This document shows, piece after piece, positions 26,461 through 54,226 of a DNA stretch of 64,000 bases. This DNA is from Solwaraspora sp. WMMD791 (GTDB taxonomy: Bacteria > Actinomycetota > Actinomycetes > Mycobacteriales > Micromonosporaceae), in assembly GCF_029581195.1 (NCBI RefSeq), contig NZ_CP120737.1, forward strand, positions 4,503,001-4,567,000. The letters are read 5' to 3'. The notes beneath the pieces were generated by a model that saw only the letters and a program-made list of their open reading frames with translations, was not told the origin of the DNA and did not search any database. A program made the translations under genes and the position numbers. Positions within the stretch are counted from its first letter, which is position 1, and every line of letters starts with the position of its first letter.

Positions 26461-26940
26461 GACCGCCGGCGACTCCGCAGCGGTACGGCGTACCCACGCC
26501 CTGTGGACCAACCTGTGGATAACTTCCGCTATCACGCTCGACAGCAGGTCATAGGCTGTGGATAACTCAGGAACAAGATCCTCGTTACGGGCGGTGTCCG
26601 GGCCTCGTCGGTCAGCCCGAGCCCGTCCGGGCGGTACAACGTATTATCAGCCGGAGAGGTTATGCGGCCGGTCGTGGCCTGGTGAGTCTGCCGGGCTCAG
26701 GTAGGCGCAGCGGCGCTGGTGGGCGGTGCGGGTGAGCATCGAGAGTGCTGCGGGAAGCTGGCATGTTGGTCGCTGCGGAACACAGGTAAGGTCGCTCTGG
26801 ACGGGTGCGTGCGACATCTATCGTAGGAAGCAACGTCCCACCGGCACCCGCCCGGTCAGCGACAGACACTGTGCGAGCAGCGGCGCGGCCGTTCGACCGA
26901 AGCGATCAACAAGGACCGGACGATCAACAAGGGAGGACGG
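26461..26940. promoter_or_regulatory. 480-bp intergenic region with two exact DnaA boxes
   Basis: TGTGGATAA, the complement of the classical DnaA box TTATCCACA, occurs exactly at 26514-26522 and 26557-26565, both in the same orientation. A degenerate copy is at 26502-26510. The rest of the region should hold the promoter of the pseudokinase-sigM operon; I could not single out -35 and -10 hexamers with confidence. No gene or RNA is visible. Confidence 0.6.
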
Positions 26941-35267: not shown

Positions 35268-36245
35268 ATGAGCCCACAGTCCGAGCCCACCACCGCCGCC
35301 CGTGACCTGCGGGTACTGGTTCTCGCCGGCGGCCTGTCCTACGAGCGGGACGTCTCCCTGAAGTCCGGCCGCCGGGTGCTTGACGCGCTGCGCTCCGCCG
35401 GCGTGGAGGCCGAGCTGCGCGACGCCGACATCACCCTGCTGCCGGCGTTGCGCGCCGACCCGCCGGACGCCGTCGTGATCGCGTTGCACGGTGCCACCGG
35501 GGAGGACGGTTCACTGCGCGGAGTGCTCGACCTGTGCGGCGTACCGTATGTCGGCTGTGACGCCCGGGCGGCCCGGCTGGCCTGGGACAAGCCGTCGGCG
35601 AAGGCGGTGCTGCAGGAAGCGGGCATCCCTACGCCGGACTGGGTGGCATTGCCGCACGACAGGTTCTCCGAGTTGGGCGCGGTGGCCGTACTGGACCGGA
35701 TCGTGGAGCGCCTCGGCCTGCCGCTGATGGTCAAGCCGGCGCAGGGCGGCTCCGGGCTGGGGGCCGCCGTCGTGCGCGAGGCCGCCGAACTGTCCGCCGC
35801 GATGGTCGGTTGTTTCGCGTACGACTCGACGGCCCTGGTCGAGCGGTACGTGACCGGCATGGACGTCGCGGTGTCGGTGGTCGACCGGGGCGACGGGCCG
35901 GAGAGTCTGCCGGCGGTCGAGATCGTGCCCCGCAACGGCGTCTACGACTACGCGGCCCGGTACACCGCCGGCCTGACCACCTGGCACGCCCCGGCCCGGC
36001 TCGACGACGAGGTGGCCGATCGGGTGGCGGCCACCGCCGTCGCCGCGCACCGCGCGCTCGGCCTGCGGGACGTCTCCCGGGTCGACCTGATCGTGGACCC
36101 GCAGGGTCAGCCGCACGTGCTGGAGGTCAACGTCTCCCCCGGGATGACCGAGACCTCGTTGCTGCCGCTCGCGGTAGAGGCCGCCGGGCTGGATCTCGGC
36201 CGGCTACTTGCCACCCTGGTCGACCGGGCCGCTGCCCGTCCGTGA
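35268..36245 (+). CDS. D-alanine--D-alanine ligase family protein
   Basis: The 325-residue ATP-grasp enzyme has GGLSYERDVSLKSGRRV, HGATGEDGSLRGVLDLCGVP, LMVKPAQGGSGLGAAVV and the omega-loop NGVYDYAARYTAG. Metal-binding residues lie in LEVNVSPGMTETSLLP. The omega-loop Tyr is of the D-Ala-D-Ala rather than D-Ala-D-lactate type. Actinobacteria usually carry the housekeeping ddl elsewhere, so this may be a paralogue making another D-Ala dipeptide. It follows the aminotransferase gene closely. Its end overlaps the convergent gene by 42 bp. Confidence 0.9.
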   Translation: MSPQSEPTTAARDLRVLVLAGGLSYERDVSLKSGRRVLDALRSAGVEAELRDADITLLPALRADPPDAVVIALHGATGEDGSLRGVLDLCGVPYVGCDARAARLAWDKPSAKAVLQEAGIPTPDWVALPHDRFSELGAVAVLDRIVERLGLPLMVKPAQGGSGLGAAVVREAAELSAAMVGCFAYDSTALVERYVTGMDVAVSVVDRGDGPESLPAVEIVPRNGVYDYAARYTAGLTTWHAPARLDDEVADRVAATAVAAHRALGLRDVSRVDLIVDPQGQPHVLEVNVSPGMTETSLLPLAVEAAGLDLGRLLATLVDRAAARP

Positions 36246-37196
36246 CCCCGCCGGGGCAGCGGCACCCGCTGTCGTCGCTGGCGACTGCGTCGGTACCGGC
36301 GTCTCCGACGCTGTCGTAGCGTCGTCGGACCCCTGGGCGTCCGGCCCACCGGTCGGCGGCGCCGTTTCGTCGTCCTCCGCGTCCGGAGCGTCGGCGTCGA
36401 CGTCGGCCGGGTCACCGGCGGCGTCGCCGTTCCGAGCGGTCAGCGCTTGCGCGGCGAGCTCGTCGAGGTCTGCGGCGGGCTCGATGTTCTCGATCGGCAG
36501 TACGGCGACCGCAACAGACCCGTCGCTGGCGGCCGGGCCGACGGCGGGAGCGTCCTCGTCGAAGTTGGTGTCCGGGTCGATCGGATGACTCGCCTGTTCG
36601 GTCAGGCTCGACGGGGCACGCCACTCGATCCGCGGTGGCTCGGCCAACGGCCGCCCGCCGAACTCGGCAAGCCAGGCCGCCACCAACGCCAGATTCTCCC
36701 GCCACCGCGACTCGGAGATCGGCGGCAGGATGCTGTCCCACAGCGAGAGGAACGTGCCCCGTAGCTGCAGCTGTCCGTACGGGCGGGCCAGGAACCACAG
36801 GTGCAGGTGCGCGGAGCCGTCACCCCATCGGTTGACGTGCACCCGCGCCACCCCGTCCAGGGACCGGATGGCGCGCTCCAGCCGTACCGTCAGCACACCC
36901 AGCTCGGCGGCGAGCAGGTTCGGCAGGTCCCCGAGGTCGAAGTGGGACCGGGACTCCAGGATCAGCACCATCGGCAGACCGGTCGGCCGATCCATGGCTC
37001 GTACTCGCCAGCGCTCACTCACCCAGATGTAGGCGTCGTCCGGCGCGGCGCAGGACGAGCACTCCGCCGTACCTTCCCCCTTGCGTGGCGGCTCGACGGC
37101 GACCGGGTCGTCGAGCTGTTTGACCCGCAGGTCACCTTCGAACGGGAAGGAAGGCCATCGCGCAAAATCGGGGATCGCGTCTGGGGTGTGGGGCAC
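36204..37196 (-). CDS. histidine-triad-like (HIT) protein with acidic tail
   Basis: The ordered part (about residues 1-220) contains NRWGDGSAHLHLWFLARPYG, a HxH-type motif with the strand arrangement of HIT nucleotide hydrolases, plus LILESRSHFDLGDLPNLLA and two Cys in AECSSCAAPDDAYIW. The last 100 residues are disordered and Asp/Ala/Thr-rich. The gene commonly sits beside parB in Micromonosporaceae-like genomes. The start is uncertain: GTG 37196 gives VPHTPDAIPDFARWP; ATGs at 37262 and 37280 add Arg/Gly-rich residues. The 3-prime end overlaps the ligase gene. Confidence 0.72.
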   Translation of the reverse strand: MPHTPDAIPDFARWPSFPFEGDLRVKQLDDPVAVEPPRKGEGTAECSSCAAPDDAYIWVSERWRVRAMDRPTGLPMVLILESRSHFDLGDLPNLLAAELGVLTVRLERAIRSLDGVARVHVNRWGDGSAHLHLWFLARPYGQLQLRGTFLSLWDSILPPISESRWRENLALVAAWLAEFGGRPLAEPPRIEWRAPSSLTEQASHPIDPDTNFDEDAPAVGPAASDGSVAVAVLPIENIEPAADLDELAAQALTARNGDAAGDPADVDADAPDAEDDETAPPTGGPDAQGSDDATTASETPVPTQSPATTAGAAAPAGSRTGSGPVDQGGK

Positions 37197-37339
37197 GACG
37201 CTGACCCTAACCGAGTCTGCCCGACCTGTCGTTCCCCGTTTCGGCCGGCCGCCGCCCGCCATGCGTGCCCGTCCCGCCAACCGGGCCGGACCGCCCCCCG
37301 CAGGACGGCATCAGAGACCGGCTACGGTGCTCACCGCTG

Positions 37340-37442
37340 CCGTCCACAGCGTTGTCCACAGAAGTTATCCACAGGCAGACAACCCGATCCACCCGCTGTT
37401 TCACGTGAAACGACGCGCCCTGTGGACAACGCCTGTGGACAA
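37340..37442. promoter_or_regulatory. cluster of exact DnaA boxes interleaved with a parS site
   Basis: Four 9-mers match a DnaA box exactly: 37352-37360 (TTGTCCACA), 37365-37373 (TTATCCACA), and in the opposite orientation 37421-37429 and 37434-37442 (TGTGGACAA). A near match lies at 37340-37348. A parS site stands at 37397-37412 between the two inverted pairs. The cluster lies in the 540-bp stretch 37197-37738 between the HIT-like gene and parB, which otherwise holds three more parS sites and no gene that I can support. Confidence 0.75.
37398..37411. promoter_or_regulatory. parS centromere site
   Basis: The perfect 14-bp palindrome GTTTCACGTGAAAC is the ParB binding site (consensus TGTTTCACGTGAAACA; here 15 of 16 bases match). 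It is flanked on both sides by DnaA-box pairs. Confidence 0.95.
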
Positions 37443-37641
37443 CGCGCCGCCGACTCACGCCGGCTGCCAACGGCACCGCGTACCGGTTGACCCCGACCCG
37501 AACTCTGTCTGTGGAGCCGGCGTTCGACCCGATCGTTGACGGCCCCTGCTCCTCAACGATCGAGTGGCGCGATGGTGACCCCGTACCGCAGGCTGCTGCC
37601 CCGGGCGAGCCGTGCATGCGCAGCCGAAGGCGGCTCGGCCC

Positions 37642-37655
37642 GTTTCACGTGAAAC
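37642..37655. promoter_or_regulatory. parS centromere site
   Basis: Perfect 14-bp core GTTTCACGTGAAAC, 12 bp from the next site at 37668. Both lie just downstream of parB. Confidence 0.95.
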
Positions 37656-37667
37656 GGGCCGAGCAGG

Positions 37668-37681
37668 GTTTCACGTGAAAC
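37668..37681. promoter_or_regulatory. parS centromere site
   Basis: Perfect 14-bp core GTTTCACGTGAAAC. Together with the copy at 37712 it brackets a GC-rich imperfect hairpin (about 37682-37711) that may terminate parB transcription. Confidence 0.95.
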
Positions 37682-37711: not shown

Positions 37712-37725
37712 GTTTCACGTGAAAC
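37712..37725. promoter_or_regulatory. parS centromere site
   Basis: Perfect 14-bp core GTTTCACGTGAAAC, 13 bp from the parB stop codon. Confidence 0.95.
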
Positions 37726-37738
37726 GTAACGCCGACGG

Positions 37739-38803
37739 TCAGTCCTGGTCGTCAGGAGCCTCTTCGCCGTCCATGCCGATGATTCCGACGATCCGCTCGA
37801 GGTCGTCGACCGTGGCGAACTCGATCGTGATCTTGCCCTTGCTCCGACCGATGTCCACCTTCACCCGGGTGTCGAACCGGTCAGAGAGTCGATCCGCCAG
37901 ATCAGCCAGCGCGGGCGCGTGGGGCTTCGGACGTCGCGGGGGCGTGCCCGGACGCTTCGCGGGCTCCTCGGTCGCCGCCAGAGCAACCAGTTCCTCGGTC
38001 GCCCGTACCGACAGACCCTCGGCGACGATCCGCAGCGCCAGCGCGTCCTGGGCCTCCGCGTCGTCGAGACCGAGCAGGGCACGGGCATGCCCTGCGGAGA
38101 GCACCCCGGCTGCCACTCGCCGCTGCACCTGAGCCGGCAGGTTCAGCAGGCGGATCGTGTTGGAGATCTGCGGCCGGCTCCGGCCGATCCGCCGCGCCAG
38201 CTCCTCATGCGTTGCCCCGAACTCCTCCAGCAACTGCTGGTAGGCGGCGGCCTCCTCGAGCGGGTTCAGATTGGCGCGATGGATGTTCTCCAGGAGCGCG
38301 TCCCGGAGCATCGCGTCGTCCTTGGTCTCCCGCACGATCGCGGGGATGCTCTCCCGGCCGATCGCCTGAGCGGCCCGCCACCGACGCTCTCCCATGACGA
38401 GCTCGTACTGCTCGCCACCGTCCAGCTGCCGCACGACGATCGGCTGAAGAAAACCGACCTGCTCGATCGAGACCTTCAGCTCCTCGAGCGCCTCGTCATC
38501 GAAGACCTGCCGCGGCTGCTTGGGGTTCGGGACGATCGCGTTCACCGACAGCTCGGCGAACCGGGCACCCGGCACCGGCGAGAGCCCGTCCTCGACCGGA
38601 GCCGGGGGTGTCTCCGACGGGTACGGCGGAGCCGGGTCGACACGCTCGGCGGTCGCCACCGGCGCCACCGGCGCCACCGGACCGGTGGGCCGGACGGCCG
38701 GCGGCGGCGCGACCTGCGTACCGGTCTGGGCAGGGGCGGGCGCCGCCGTAGGGATCAAGGCACCGAGCCCTCGACCGAGCCCGCCCTTTGGACGGTTCTT
38801 CAT
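37739..38803 (-). CDS. parB: chromosome-partitioning protein ParB (CTP-dependent clamp)
   Basis: The 354-residue protein starts with the basic [19 protein letters not shown] ParA-interaction leader and a Pro/Ala linker (20-75). The CTP-binding domain follows, with GFLQPIVV and GERRWRAA (Gly138 onwards) and [17 protein letters not shown]. The helix-turn-helix is [20 protein letters not shown]. The C-terminal dimerisation part is [20 protein letters not shown]. It loads at parS and slides as a clamp to organise and segregate the origin. ATG 38803 has GGGAGG upstream. 27 bp after parA. Confidence 0.97.
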
Positions 38804-38830: not shown

Positions 38831-39916
38831 TCAGAGATTGCGGACACGTCGCGCCGCTCCGCGTTCGGCAATTTCCTGCGCCGCCTCGAAGTAGCTCGTC
38901 GCGCCCCGCGAACCGGGATCGTAGGTCATCACCGACTGCCCGTAGCTCGGTGCCTCGGAAACCCGGACGTTGCGCGGGATCACCGCCTGCAGAACCTTCT
39001 CGCCGAAGTGGTTGCGGACGTCCTGCTCCACCGCGTCCGCCAACCGGGTACGGCGGTCGTACATCGTCAACAGGATCGTCGAGACGTCCAGCGTCGGGTT
39101 GAGGTGTTGCCGGACCAGGTTGATGTTGTTGATCAGCTGGTTGAGCCCTTCCAAGGCGTAGTACTCGCACTGAATCGGGATCAGCACCTCCTGGGCGGCG
39201 ACCAGCGCGTTGACCGTCAGCAGACCCAACGACGGAGGGCAGTCGATGAACACGTAGTCCAACTCGGCCGGGTAGGCGGTGATCGCCCGGGACAGCCGCG
39301 ACTCACGGGCGACCACCGAGACCAGTTCGATCTCGGCACCGGCGAGGTCGATGGTCGCGGGCACGCACCACAGATTGGGGATGCCCTCGACCGGCTGCGC
39401 CACCTCGGAGAGCGGGACGTTGTCGATCAGGCAGTCGTAGACGTCCGGCACCCCTGCATGGTGCGGGACGTTGAGTCCAGTCGAGGCGTTGCCCTGCGGG
39501 TCGAGGTCTACGACCATGACCCGGTTTCCGTGCAACGCCAGCGCCACGGCGAGGTTGACCGTGGTGGTCGTTTTTCCGACGCCGCCCTTCTGATTCGCGA
39601 CACACATCACCCGGGTCCGGTCCGGCCGGGGCATGGTCACCTCGCCGCTCGGGTTCAGAATCTGCACGGCGCGCAAAGCCTCCATTGCCAAGGGGGGATC
39701 ATCTTCTTCCCGGTTCGGTGTTTCACGTGAAACGTAGGGGGCGTCGACGGCCGATGGGCCCGGGCCCATCGACGGCGTCTGCGGCCCGGAACTCACCGCA
39801 GACGCCAGCACCGGTTCCCCAGCCTGCGGCGGTACCGCTGTCGGCGGTCCCACGGGTGCCGACGGCACGGCGACCGGCGCTGAACGTGCGGTCTGCGGTG
39901 CACCGGTGTCAGCCAT
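38831..39916 (-). CDS. parA: chromosome-partitioning ATPase ParA
   Basis: The 361-residue protein has a disordered N-terminus of about 75 residues. The deviant Walker A KGGVGKTTTTV (Lys110 onwards), VVDLDPQGNASTGLN, the Walker B region DYVFIDCPPSLGLLTVNAL, and RNVRVSEAPSYGQSV follow. It drives ParB-parS complexes through ATP-dependent DNA binding. Start ATG 39916 has GGGAGGA about 8 nt upstream; the frame stays open to 40213 but no comparable site exists there. Residues 62-66, VSRET, are encoded by a parS palindrome at 39720-39733. Confidence 0.95.
   Translation of the reverse strand: MADTGAPQTARSAPVAVPSAPVGPPTAVPPQAGEPVLASAVSSGPQTPSMGPGPSAVDAPYVSRETPNREEDDPPLAMEALRAVQILNPSGEVTMPRPDRTRVMCVANQKGGVGKTTTTVNLAVALALHGNRVMVVDLDPQGNASTGLNVPHHAGVPDVYDCLIDNVPLSEVAQPVEGIPNLWCVPATIDLAGAEIELVSVVARESRLSRAITAYPAELDYVFIDCPPSLGLLTVNALVAAQEVLIPIQCEYYALEGLNQLINNINLVRQHLNPTLDVSTILLTMYDRRTRLADAVEQDVRNHFGEKVLQAVIPRNVRVSEAPSYGQSVMTYDPGSRGATSYFEAAQEIAERGAARRVRNL
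39720..39733. promoter_or_regulatory. parS centromere site inside parA
   Basis: Perfect 14-bp core within the parA coding sequence, where it is read as Val-Ser-Arg-Glu-Thr (residues 62-66) in the disordered N-terminus. Confidence 0.95.
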
Positions 39917-40270
39917 CGATCTGGTCCTCCCATTCGACCAGTCGGGGGCGTACGAGGTTTCACGTGAAACCACCGCAGGGTCACCGCCCTGGCGATCGCC
40001 CGTCAGCCGTGGATCGTCGTACCTACCGTTGTCATGCACCGTGTCATCCCTGCCCGCCGTGGATGGATCGGCACCGCCAGCGCTCACGTCCGCGCTTTCG
40101 GGCGTGGCGTGCGGACCAGCAAGAGGCGGCATGATCGAGCCGTTACACGATGCCGCCCGGTCCACACTATCGACGCGCGGCCAGCCTACGGGGATCAGGG
40201 CCGGCGTGGCCACGGCCGACTGTCCGACGTGTCGCAGCCTTCACGTCAGGGCGGGCGGCCCGGGCGCGGA
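39917..40270. other. 354-bp region between rsmG and parA
   Basis: Apart from the parS site at 39957-39970 it holds no gene I can support. The parA frame remains open through it on the minus strand to 40213, so a longer ParA cannot be excluded. A parA-parB promoter should lie here. Confidence 0.4.
39957..39970. promoter_or_regulatory. parS centromere site upstream of parA
   Basis: Perfect 14-bp core GTTTCACGTGAAAC, 40 bp before the chosen parA start, so ParB bound here could affect the parAB promoter. It is also in the same reading frame as the site inside parA. Confidence 0.95.
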
Positions 40271-44478: not shown

Positions 44479-44498
44479 TGTGGATAACTTGTGGATGA
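44479..44498. promoter_or_regulatory. two DnaA boxes in the dnaA upstream region
   Basis: TGTGGATAA at 44479-44487 is an exact DnaA box complement and TGTGGATGA at 44490-44498 differs by one base. They lie about 130 bp before the dnaA start and suggest autoregulation by DnaA. Elsewhere in 43945-44625 I see the tandem repeat and no gene. Confidence 0.7.
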
Positions 44499-46434: not shown

Positions 46435-47125
46435 CCGCGTACCCACAGGTTTTCCACAGGGGGTTGTCCACCGTCGGTGGACAACCCCCTTGTCGTTGGC
46501 ACCACCCTGGCGCCGCGTTGTCCACAGGCTGTGGAAGACGGCTGGGGAAACCGCTGTGGACAGTTACTCAGAGTATTCGTTTGTCCACAGCTCGCTGGCA
46601 GGCTGTGGACGGCCTGTTGAAGGTTCTGGGGACGAACGGACCCGCGATCGCCGGCACGTTACCCACAGCTGGGGACGAACCCTTGGGATAACCGGTGGAT
46701 AACCGGTGGATAACCTGGGGAGCCTGTGTGCGACCGGACGGCCTGTGGACGACGGGGCGGGTTGTACCCACCCTCATCCACAGCTCATCCACCCCCGTCC
46801 ACGCCAGCTGAGCTGCGTAAACGTGAGATGTCCACAGAGTGCACAGGACCGATGAAGACGATGAGATTTATCTTCTAGACAACAAAACCCAATCATCGGC
46901 GTTGGGGGGTTGTGTGGATGGAGCGGACAGAGGGTCCACCGCAGGAGGATGAGACCGGCCAAGCCTGGGGGCGGACGCACCACCGCCACGCTCTGGCCTA
47001 TCGTTCGGTGAGGTCCGTTGACCGACAGCAGCCGCACCGGGCGAGGCGGCCACCTCGCCGCCCGGTGCCACAGAAGATCGTTCGAGTCGACGCGGAGGCA
47101 CGCCCATGAAGTGCGGAGGCAAGGG
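46435..47125. other. oriC: chromosomal origin of replication oriC
   Basis: The 691-bp region between dnaA and dnaN holds many DnaA boxes in both orientations. Exact TTGTCCACA occurs at 46518-46526 and 46581-46589. One-mismatch copies are at 46450, 46464, 46476, 46555, 46659, 46694, 46705, 46744, 46774 and 46828, with weaker ones beyond. Two short direct repeats carry boxes 11 bp apart (46694/46705 and 46774/46785). An AT-rich stretch at about 46853-46895 is the likely unwinding element; it lies on the dnaN side. Confidence 0.93.
46458..46490. terminator. dnaA terminator hairpin built from two inverted DnaA boxes
   Basis: A perfect 15-bp stem (46458-46472 with 46476-46490) with a 3-nt loop follows the dnaA stop by 23 bp. 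Each arm contains a DnaA-box-like 9-mer (TTGTCCACC and its complement), so terminator and first oriC boxes coincide. Confidence 0.7.
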
Positions 47126-54186: not shown

Positions 54187-54226
54187 TTATCCACAGCTTC
54201 GCGAGATTCCACAGCCGTTATCCACA
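54187..54226. promoter_or_regulatory. pair of exact DnaA boxes between gyrB and gyrA
   Basis: TTATCCACA occurs exactly at 54187-54195 and 54218-54226, in the same orientation and 31 bp apart. A degenerate copy (GATTCCACA) is at 54205-54213. The whole gyrB-gyrA spacer is 125 bp, so bound DnaA would sit just upstream of gyrA. Confidence 0.7.

Follow-up and report, generated by a model that had tools for sequence, protein, structure and literature searches.

The link between the start of replication and movement of the newly copied origin is still poorly understood in bacteria, and few DNA sites have been described at which both machineries come together. The question raised by the present locus is whether such a site lies in the spacer between parB and a conserved neighbouring gene of Solwaraspora sp. 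WMMD791 (Micromonosporaceae), where DnaA boxes surround a parS site. The window, by which we mean the whole stretch of 64 kb that was analysed, carries dnaN, oriC, dnaA, yidC, jag, rsmG, parA, parB, the spacer and the conserved neighbouring gene, in that order. The names yidC, jag and rsmG are presumptive and were given from reading of the sequences. Positions of the features are collected in Table 1.

Table 1. Features of the parB-neighbouring gene spacer and its surroundings, in window coordinates except for the window itself (contig coordinates).
Feature	Position	Strand	Basis or remark
Window	4503001-4567000		64-kb piece of the 6.93-Mb single-contig genome
Composite element	37346..37449	-	104 bp, read in parB direction; alignment A1, 36 loci
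Outer DnaA box TTGTCCACA	37352..37360	+	Exact sequence match
Inner DnaA box TTATCCACA, facing the tandem pair	37365..37373	+	Sequence match and alignment A1
24-nt arm, inner box to parS	37374..37397	.	Partly conserved by column counts
Perfect parS GTTTCACGTGAAAC within box array	37398..37411	.	Exact in 35/36 A1 rows
Inner DnaA box TTGTCCACA, 9 nt from parS	37421..37429	-	Sequence match and A1
Outer DnaA box TTGTCCACA, tandem to the 37421 box in 13-bp register	37434..37442	-	Sequence match and A1
Additional perfect parS, parB-proximal part of spacer	37642..37655	.	Sequence match
Additional perfect parS in spacer	37668..37681	.	Sequence match
Additional perfect parS in spacer	37712..37725	.	Sequence match
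Neighbouring gene	36204..37280	-	Start uncertain
parB	37739..38803	-	NCBIfam TIGR00180, above cut-off
parA	38831..40213	-	Best NCBIfam matches ParA-type, below cut-offs; adjoins parB
oriC (dnaA-dnaN intergenic region)	about 46435..47017	.	12 boxes with at most one mismatch; bounds approximate, ORF starts being mechanical

A preliminary description of this DNA had reported four exact DnaA boxes, as two inverted pairs, on either side of a parS about 9 kb from oriC. We found every one of these sites at the position claimed for it, and the distance from the element to oriC is as described. All four boxes are exact matches to TTRTCCACA, but only one is TTATCCACA and three are TTGTCCACA. According to excerpts of PMC4285127, the latter is the high-affinity box of S. 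coelicolor and M. tuberculosis. The two pairs do face each other across parS, but each is itself tandem (13-bp register, 4-bp gap). Exact boxes were said to be more numerous here than in oriC. This is correct for TTRTCCACA (four versus two), but not if one mismatch is allowed, in which case oriC has 12 sites. The neighbouring gene had been named HIT, a name that our searches do not bear out: no Pfam family was matched at 0.001 (a single, irrelevant match appeared at 10), and none in NCBIfam. Perfect parS sites number six in the 6.93-Mb genome and all fall within 2.6 kb, four of them in the spacer and two within parA.

Across the whole genome there are 48 occurrences of TTRTCCACA versus 19 of the pattern read backwards. 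Four of the 48 sit within 91 bp, and the probability of finding three more sites no further than 82 bp from a given one is ~3e-11 if sites are spread uniformly. A chance origin of the box cluster is ruled out by these counts and by the clustering probability. Over many loci, boxes of the form TTNTCCACA have a density of 19.1 per kb in the element (39 loci), which was itself chosen for its boxes, compared to 5.1 per kb in oriC (30 loci), 0.2 in the rest of the spacer (37 loci) and 0.011 in coding sequence.

Judged by ParB, the relatives of the window belong to the Micromonosporaceae. Conservation was evaluated using 80 parB loci, 20 stretches from further relatives and the window; 56 of these are from the Micromonosporaceae and 45 from outside the family. 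In the family, the spacer often includes a non-coding unit of ~90 bp that consists of two tandem boxes in 13-bp register, 9-10 bp, parS, ~24 bp and an inverted box. The motif picked 27 copies, two of them inverted, and a profile was built from the 25 in the same orientation. At 45 bits or more, the profile matched 39 of the 56 family loci (14 of which were not seeds) and none of the 45 others. The 17 family loci without a match include early-ending contigs and loci in which boxes are present but parS is displaced or missing. From -37 to +49 around parS, 69 of 87 columns are above the largest value in the flanks (0.37 bits), and column information averages 1.05 bits versus 0.066 in the flanks. 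Conservation measured in this way is partly circular, because 25 of the 39 loci were picked by the motif.

Alignment A1 comprises 36 of the 39 loci. Omitted were L012, a near-copy of L014; L019, which has lost the facing box; and L032, from which the inner parS has gone. Bases 4-9 are invariant in the first two boxes and base 3 varies, as would be expected from the tolerance of DnaA; TT(G/A)TCCACa is the box reported for an Actinoplanes oriC in the part of PMC3364876 consulted. The tandem pair and parS are present as searched in 35 of the 36 rows, the facing box reads TGTGGA in 34, and parS is exact in 35. The distance from the second box to parS is 6-12 bp in 35 of the 36 loci, a property for which they were partly selected.

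A sequence model made from A1 (R1) matched at least 98 of 121 family genomes, representing at least 34 of 44 genera, at E ≤0.001; many of these genomes contributed to A1, and the place was not confirmed for each match. Independently of any profile, we surveyed the 900 bp upstream of the neighbouring gene in the 117 of these 121 genomes in which that gene was found (a few best matches, e.g., in G096, are at the level of a second copy and may be another gene). A box was defined as T[T/C/A]NTCCACA, and one mismatch was allowed in parS. A box is located within 60 bp of parS in 88 of the 117 genomes and 29 of 42 genera: 46 genomes (17 genera) have box, parS and box at core spacing, 15 have parS and one of the two boxes at core spacing, and in 27 a box within this distance is spaced in some other way. 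The other 29 genomes have box and parS further apart (four), parS only (seven), a box only (one) or neither (17). They are spread across 16 genera and include all seven genomes of g12, four of the five of g5 and all four of g13, as well as g14 and g15. Thus, the Micromonosporaceae do not depend on the unit.

Of the 78 exact parS sites that the 56 family loci contain in the 900 bp before the neighbouring gene, 45 are accompanied by a box no more than 60 bp away, compared to 2 of the 171 exact sites elsewhere in these loci (Fisher p 1e-25, with relatedness of loci not corrected for and loci without a detected neighbouring gene counted as elsewhere). The pairing of box and parS is neither chance nor peculiar to the genome of the window. 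The preliminary description had made its reading depend on conservation in relatives, and this is what we found: boxes and parS are kept together with tight spacing in much of the family, 29 of 117 genomes being without the pairing at this place.

The distance between convergent boxes in the 117 surveyed genomes is 55 bp in three, 56 bp in 28 and 57 bp in 28. Distances of 69 and 70 bp, which equal 56 and 57 plus 13, occur in 24 and 20 genomes. Lesser peaks are at 25 bp (6 genomes), 82 bp (6), 93 bp (4), 106 bp (4) and 68 bp (3). Tandem boxes are spaced by 13 bp in 54 genomes, 12 bp in five and 36 bp in four. The fourth box is present at the spacing seen in the window in six of seven genomes of its genus. 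A looser search that allowed 54-59 bp recovered a convergent pair in 75 of the 117 genomes, and every one of these pairs is at 55-57 bp. In 18 of the 75, the loop contains no parS (genera g2, g3, g16, g19, g26, g32 and g39; in the two cases from g39 the array is denser and differently built). Fifteen of these 18 genomes still have a parS no more than 60 bp from a box; the exceptions are G007, G021 and G103. Thus, ParB in the loop is not strictly required. Given that box spacing outlasts the loop parS, we conclude that the box array is the stricter constraint and proximity of parS the looser one.

The position of the unit is far more variable than its internal spacing. Unit and parB are separated by about 60 bp to 5 kb across loci. 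In the 53 genomes with box, parS and box (a looser count than the 46 given above), parS is 62-786 bp from the protein-match start of the neighbouring gene, and the unit is inverted relative to this gene in seven, all from g29 or g30; box spacing is retained in the inverted units. A role as a fixed promoter part of the neighbouring gene is ruled out by the variable distance and the inversion. Coding constraint on the unit is unlikely because spacings differ by single bases between loci (56/57, 9/10) and the unit occurs in both orientations.

Divergent genera have the neighbouring gene and lack the unit. In g13, the best match to the neighbouring gene is far from parB or on another contig; going by its score, it is likely the true neighbouring gene and not a second copy. 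No boxes or parS were identified near this match in the 4.6-4.7 kb read in each of four genomes (4/4). An R1 match in G074 led to a second place, on the gyrA side of oriC, in G074, G055 and G018. All three genomes examined have a convergent pair there, at 56 or 57 bp, followed ~70 bp past the pair by a common palindrome with one mismatch to parS and, 23-34 bp beyond, by a further box. The unit is 21 kb (G018) and 26.5 kb (G055) from dnaN; in G074 it lies about as far beyond gyrB. The profile scores are weak (27, 20 and 28 bits) and parS is outside the pair. The arrangement suggests that the unit was relocated in g13, with independent origin as an alternative.

We found no full unit outside the Micromonosporaceae, either with the model (246 genomes of the class) or with the pattern (296 genomes of the phylum). 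The R1 search returned nine genomes at E 1e-4, of which three belong to the family and the other six have partial matches (24-30 bits), and the strict parS-gap-box pattern occurs in two of the 296 genomes, both from the family. Among the 45 non-family loci, 13 of 130 parS have a box within 60 bp (two one-mismatch variants included), and ten of the 13 fall in five loci from Amycolatopsis and Prauserella. Loci L049, L064, L071, L073 and L086, from these two genera, have an arrangement of parS, DnaA box and parS in about 100 bp upstream of rsmG. This array may be an independent pairing of both site types. All nine f19 g65 genomes read (L238, L240, L242, L243, L245-L247, L251 and L253) have a box ~85-190 bp from parS; its location hardly varies and is roughly 1.1 kb upstream of parB.

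Several other box and repeat sites were observed. Two tandem TTATCCACA boxes, 31 bp apart, are located between gyrB and gyrA (54187-54226). G005, G006 and G009 have a pair at the corresponding position (30 bp), and none was found in G004; control of gyrA by DnaA via these boxes is possible. The interval between a murJ-like and a kinase-like gene (26502-26565) has two TTATCCACA boxes 43 bp apart, with identical spacing in four of four relatives (G004, G005, G006 and G009). The DnaA box upstream of dnaA (44479-44498) is kept in all four relatives examined, and autoregulation of dnaA via this box is probable. At 5-120, ~46 kb from oriC, imperfect boxes are dense and include two TTGTGCACA in opposite orientation; G004 and G006 have a full box at the corresponding position, and none is among the boxes listed in G005. 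Elsewhere in the genome of the window (G000:C1) there are three tandem box pairs, each exactly 19 bp apart (3078829/3078848, 4131929/4131948 and 4136414/4136433), the latter two separated by 4.5 kb. In the Actinoplanes-like loci L024, L038 and L099, many parS sites and short tandem repeats, e.g., GGTGCC, are located downstream of parB.

What, then, could the unit do? We propose, with moderate confidence and from the arrangement of the sites, that the spacer carries a cis-acting DnaA-binding control site within the centromere, at which DnaA occupancy and ParB loading influence one another. DnaA would bind both arms of boxes and build a local complex. ParB would load at parS and then slide over or against the boxes, and each protein would affect the occupancy or loading of the other. 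An element ~9 kb from oriC is copied very soon after initiation, which makes a twofold output likely: DnaA would be withdrawn or reset after initiation, as by E. coli datA or DARS, and this reset would be linked with the loading of ParB onto the centromere just replicated. Coupling of DnaA and ParB is plausible in view of two precedents, DnaA action at parS in Caulobacter and the rctA/parS2 locus of V. cholerae. It is doubtful that ParB goes as far as being the switch of an initiator-resetting site, with loading at the loop parS joining or parting the facing DnaA arms. If it did, the site would belong to a new class, and only a centromere that is freshly replicated and loaded with ParB would allow the nucleotide state or the free amount of DnaA to be reset. 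The preliminary description had invoked control of DnaA of the SpoIIIE/Soj type. We know of no role for SpoIIIE as a regulator of DnaA. Soj (ParA), however, is a B. subtilis precedent for such control, according to the consulted part of the review PMC6399470.

Influence could also run in one direction, with DnaA beside parS licensing or triggering movement of the centromere and acting on segregation, not the reverse. This would be comparable to Caulobacter, where DnaA boxes are likewise paired with parS near oriC, DnaA binds parS, and low DnaA levels move unreplicated parS (PMC6399470, in part). The 15 of 18 genomes that keep a parS within 60 bp of a box after its loss from the loop are consistent with this idea. 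However, spacing between boxes is stricter than that between box and parS, suggesting that the main constraint comes from a DnaA complex, and other parS in the region are mostly without boxes. We thus consider a purely one-way role somewhat unlikely. The main ordinary alternative is an operator through which DnaA (and ParB) control transcription of the neighbouring gene. The unit is indeed found upstream of this gene (the one place that the survey covered) and, in several genera, much nearer to it than to parB. The alternative is weakened by the range of distances to the gene and by the inverted units, by the divergent genera that have the gene without the unit, and by g13, where the gene has no boxes or parS in any of four genomes and a similar unit is located elsewhere in all three examined. 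In our judgement it is unlikely.

Plain titration, with the unit as a high-affinity sink for DnaA near oriC and parS incidental in a parS-rich region, would fit the further conserved box clusters around oriC in the genus of the window. Clusters in S. coelicolor and B. subtilis are also said to repress untimely initiation (PMC5742627, in part). Yet an incidental parS is hard to reconcile with the large excess of nearby boxes at parS upstream of the neighbouring gene (45/78 versus 2/171) and with the 6-12 bp between second box and parS in 35 aligned loci, partly selected for this distance; we regard titration by itself as quite improbable. Facing boxes are complementary, and the inverted repeats might thus be read as an RNA hairpin, a terminator or attenuator of parB. 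The spacer has ten Rfam matches up to E 1, none at the family cut-off and most to animal microRNA models. However, of the 156 cells given by box positions 1-3 in 52 genomes, 20 are unpaired and 48 are G-U, and the complementarity is explained by the palindrome that the DnaA sites form. A hairpin is extremely improbable.

If the spacer is a DnaA-ParB control site of the kind proposed, it offers a direct test target for coupling: a deletable unit of ~90 bp with tight geometry, in a family rich in antibiotic producers. The natural variants (loop parS lost, unit inverted, similar unit elsewhere) are ready-made controls. We found no description of this composite in the titles, abstracts and passages searched of the open-licence literature.

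Short clusters of DnaA boxes outside oriC are also a feature of E. coli DARS1, DARS2 and datA. In DARS, boxes II and III have one orientation and box I the other, whereas the essential datA boxes share one direction (PMC5742627, in part). The unit described here has the former orientation, given its tandem pair and the facing TGTGGA (35 and 34 of the 36 aligned rows), and boxes that face each other do not share one direction as those of datA do. Judged by sequence, box polarity therefore resembles that of DARS more closely than that of datA. The spacing is different: boxes in the bioD-uvrB spacer of K-12, which we take to be DARS1 from its location, converge at 14 bp and are tandem at 12 bp, compared to 55-57 and 13 bp here. 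Furthermore, the facing boxes here have a parS between them. To our knowledge, Actinobacteria lack the E. coli IHF used by datA and DARS2.

Within the Actinobacteria, the clusters of Streptomyces coelicolor are similar in that they are DnaA boxes outside oriC; those repress untimely initiation (Smulczyk-Krawczyszyn et al., 2006, as cited in the consulted part of PMC5742627). Here, too, several high-affinity boxes are grouped over a short distance in non-coding DNA outside oriC. The rctA/parS2 locus of Vibrio cholerae chromosome II also brings ParB and an initiator to one locus, and the locus is presumed to titrate the initiator, but that initiator is RctB rather than DnaA and the chromosome is a secondary one (PMC6399470, in part). 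A parallel in the type of sites exists in Caulobacter crescentus, whose parS has DnaA boxes (Mera et al., 2014, via the consulted part of the review PMC6399470). In both cases DnaA boxes are within or next to an origin-proximal parS, and initiator and ParB share one locus. However, the bacteria are unrelated, and the unit described here has two facing arms of boxes with tight geometry, recurs as a box near parS in 29 of 42 genera, and can keep its box pair after loss of the inner parS. A centromere site with initiator boxes was thus already known from Caulobacter, and this composite is a variant with its own geometry.
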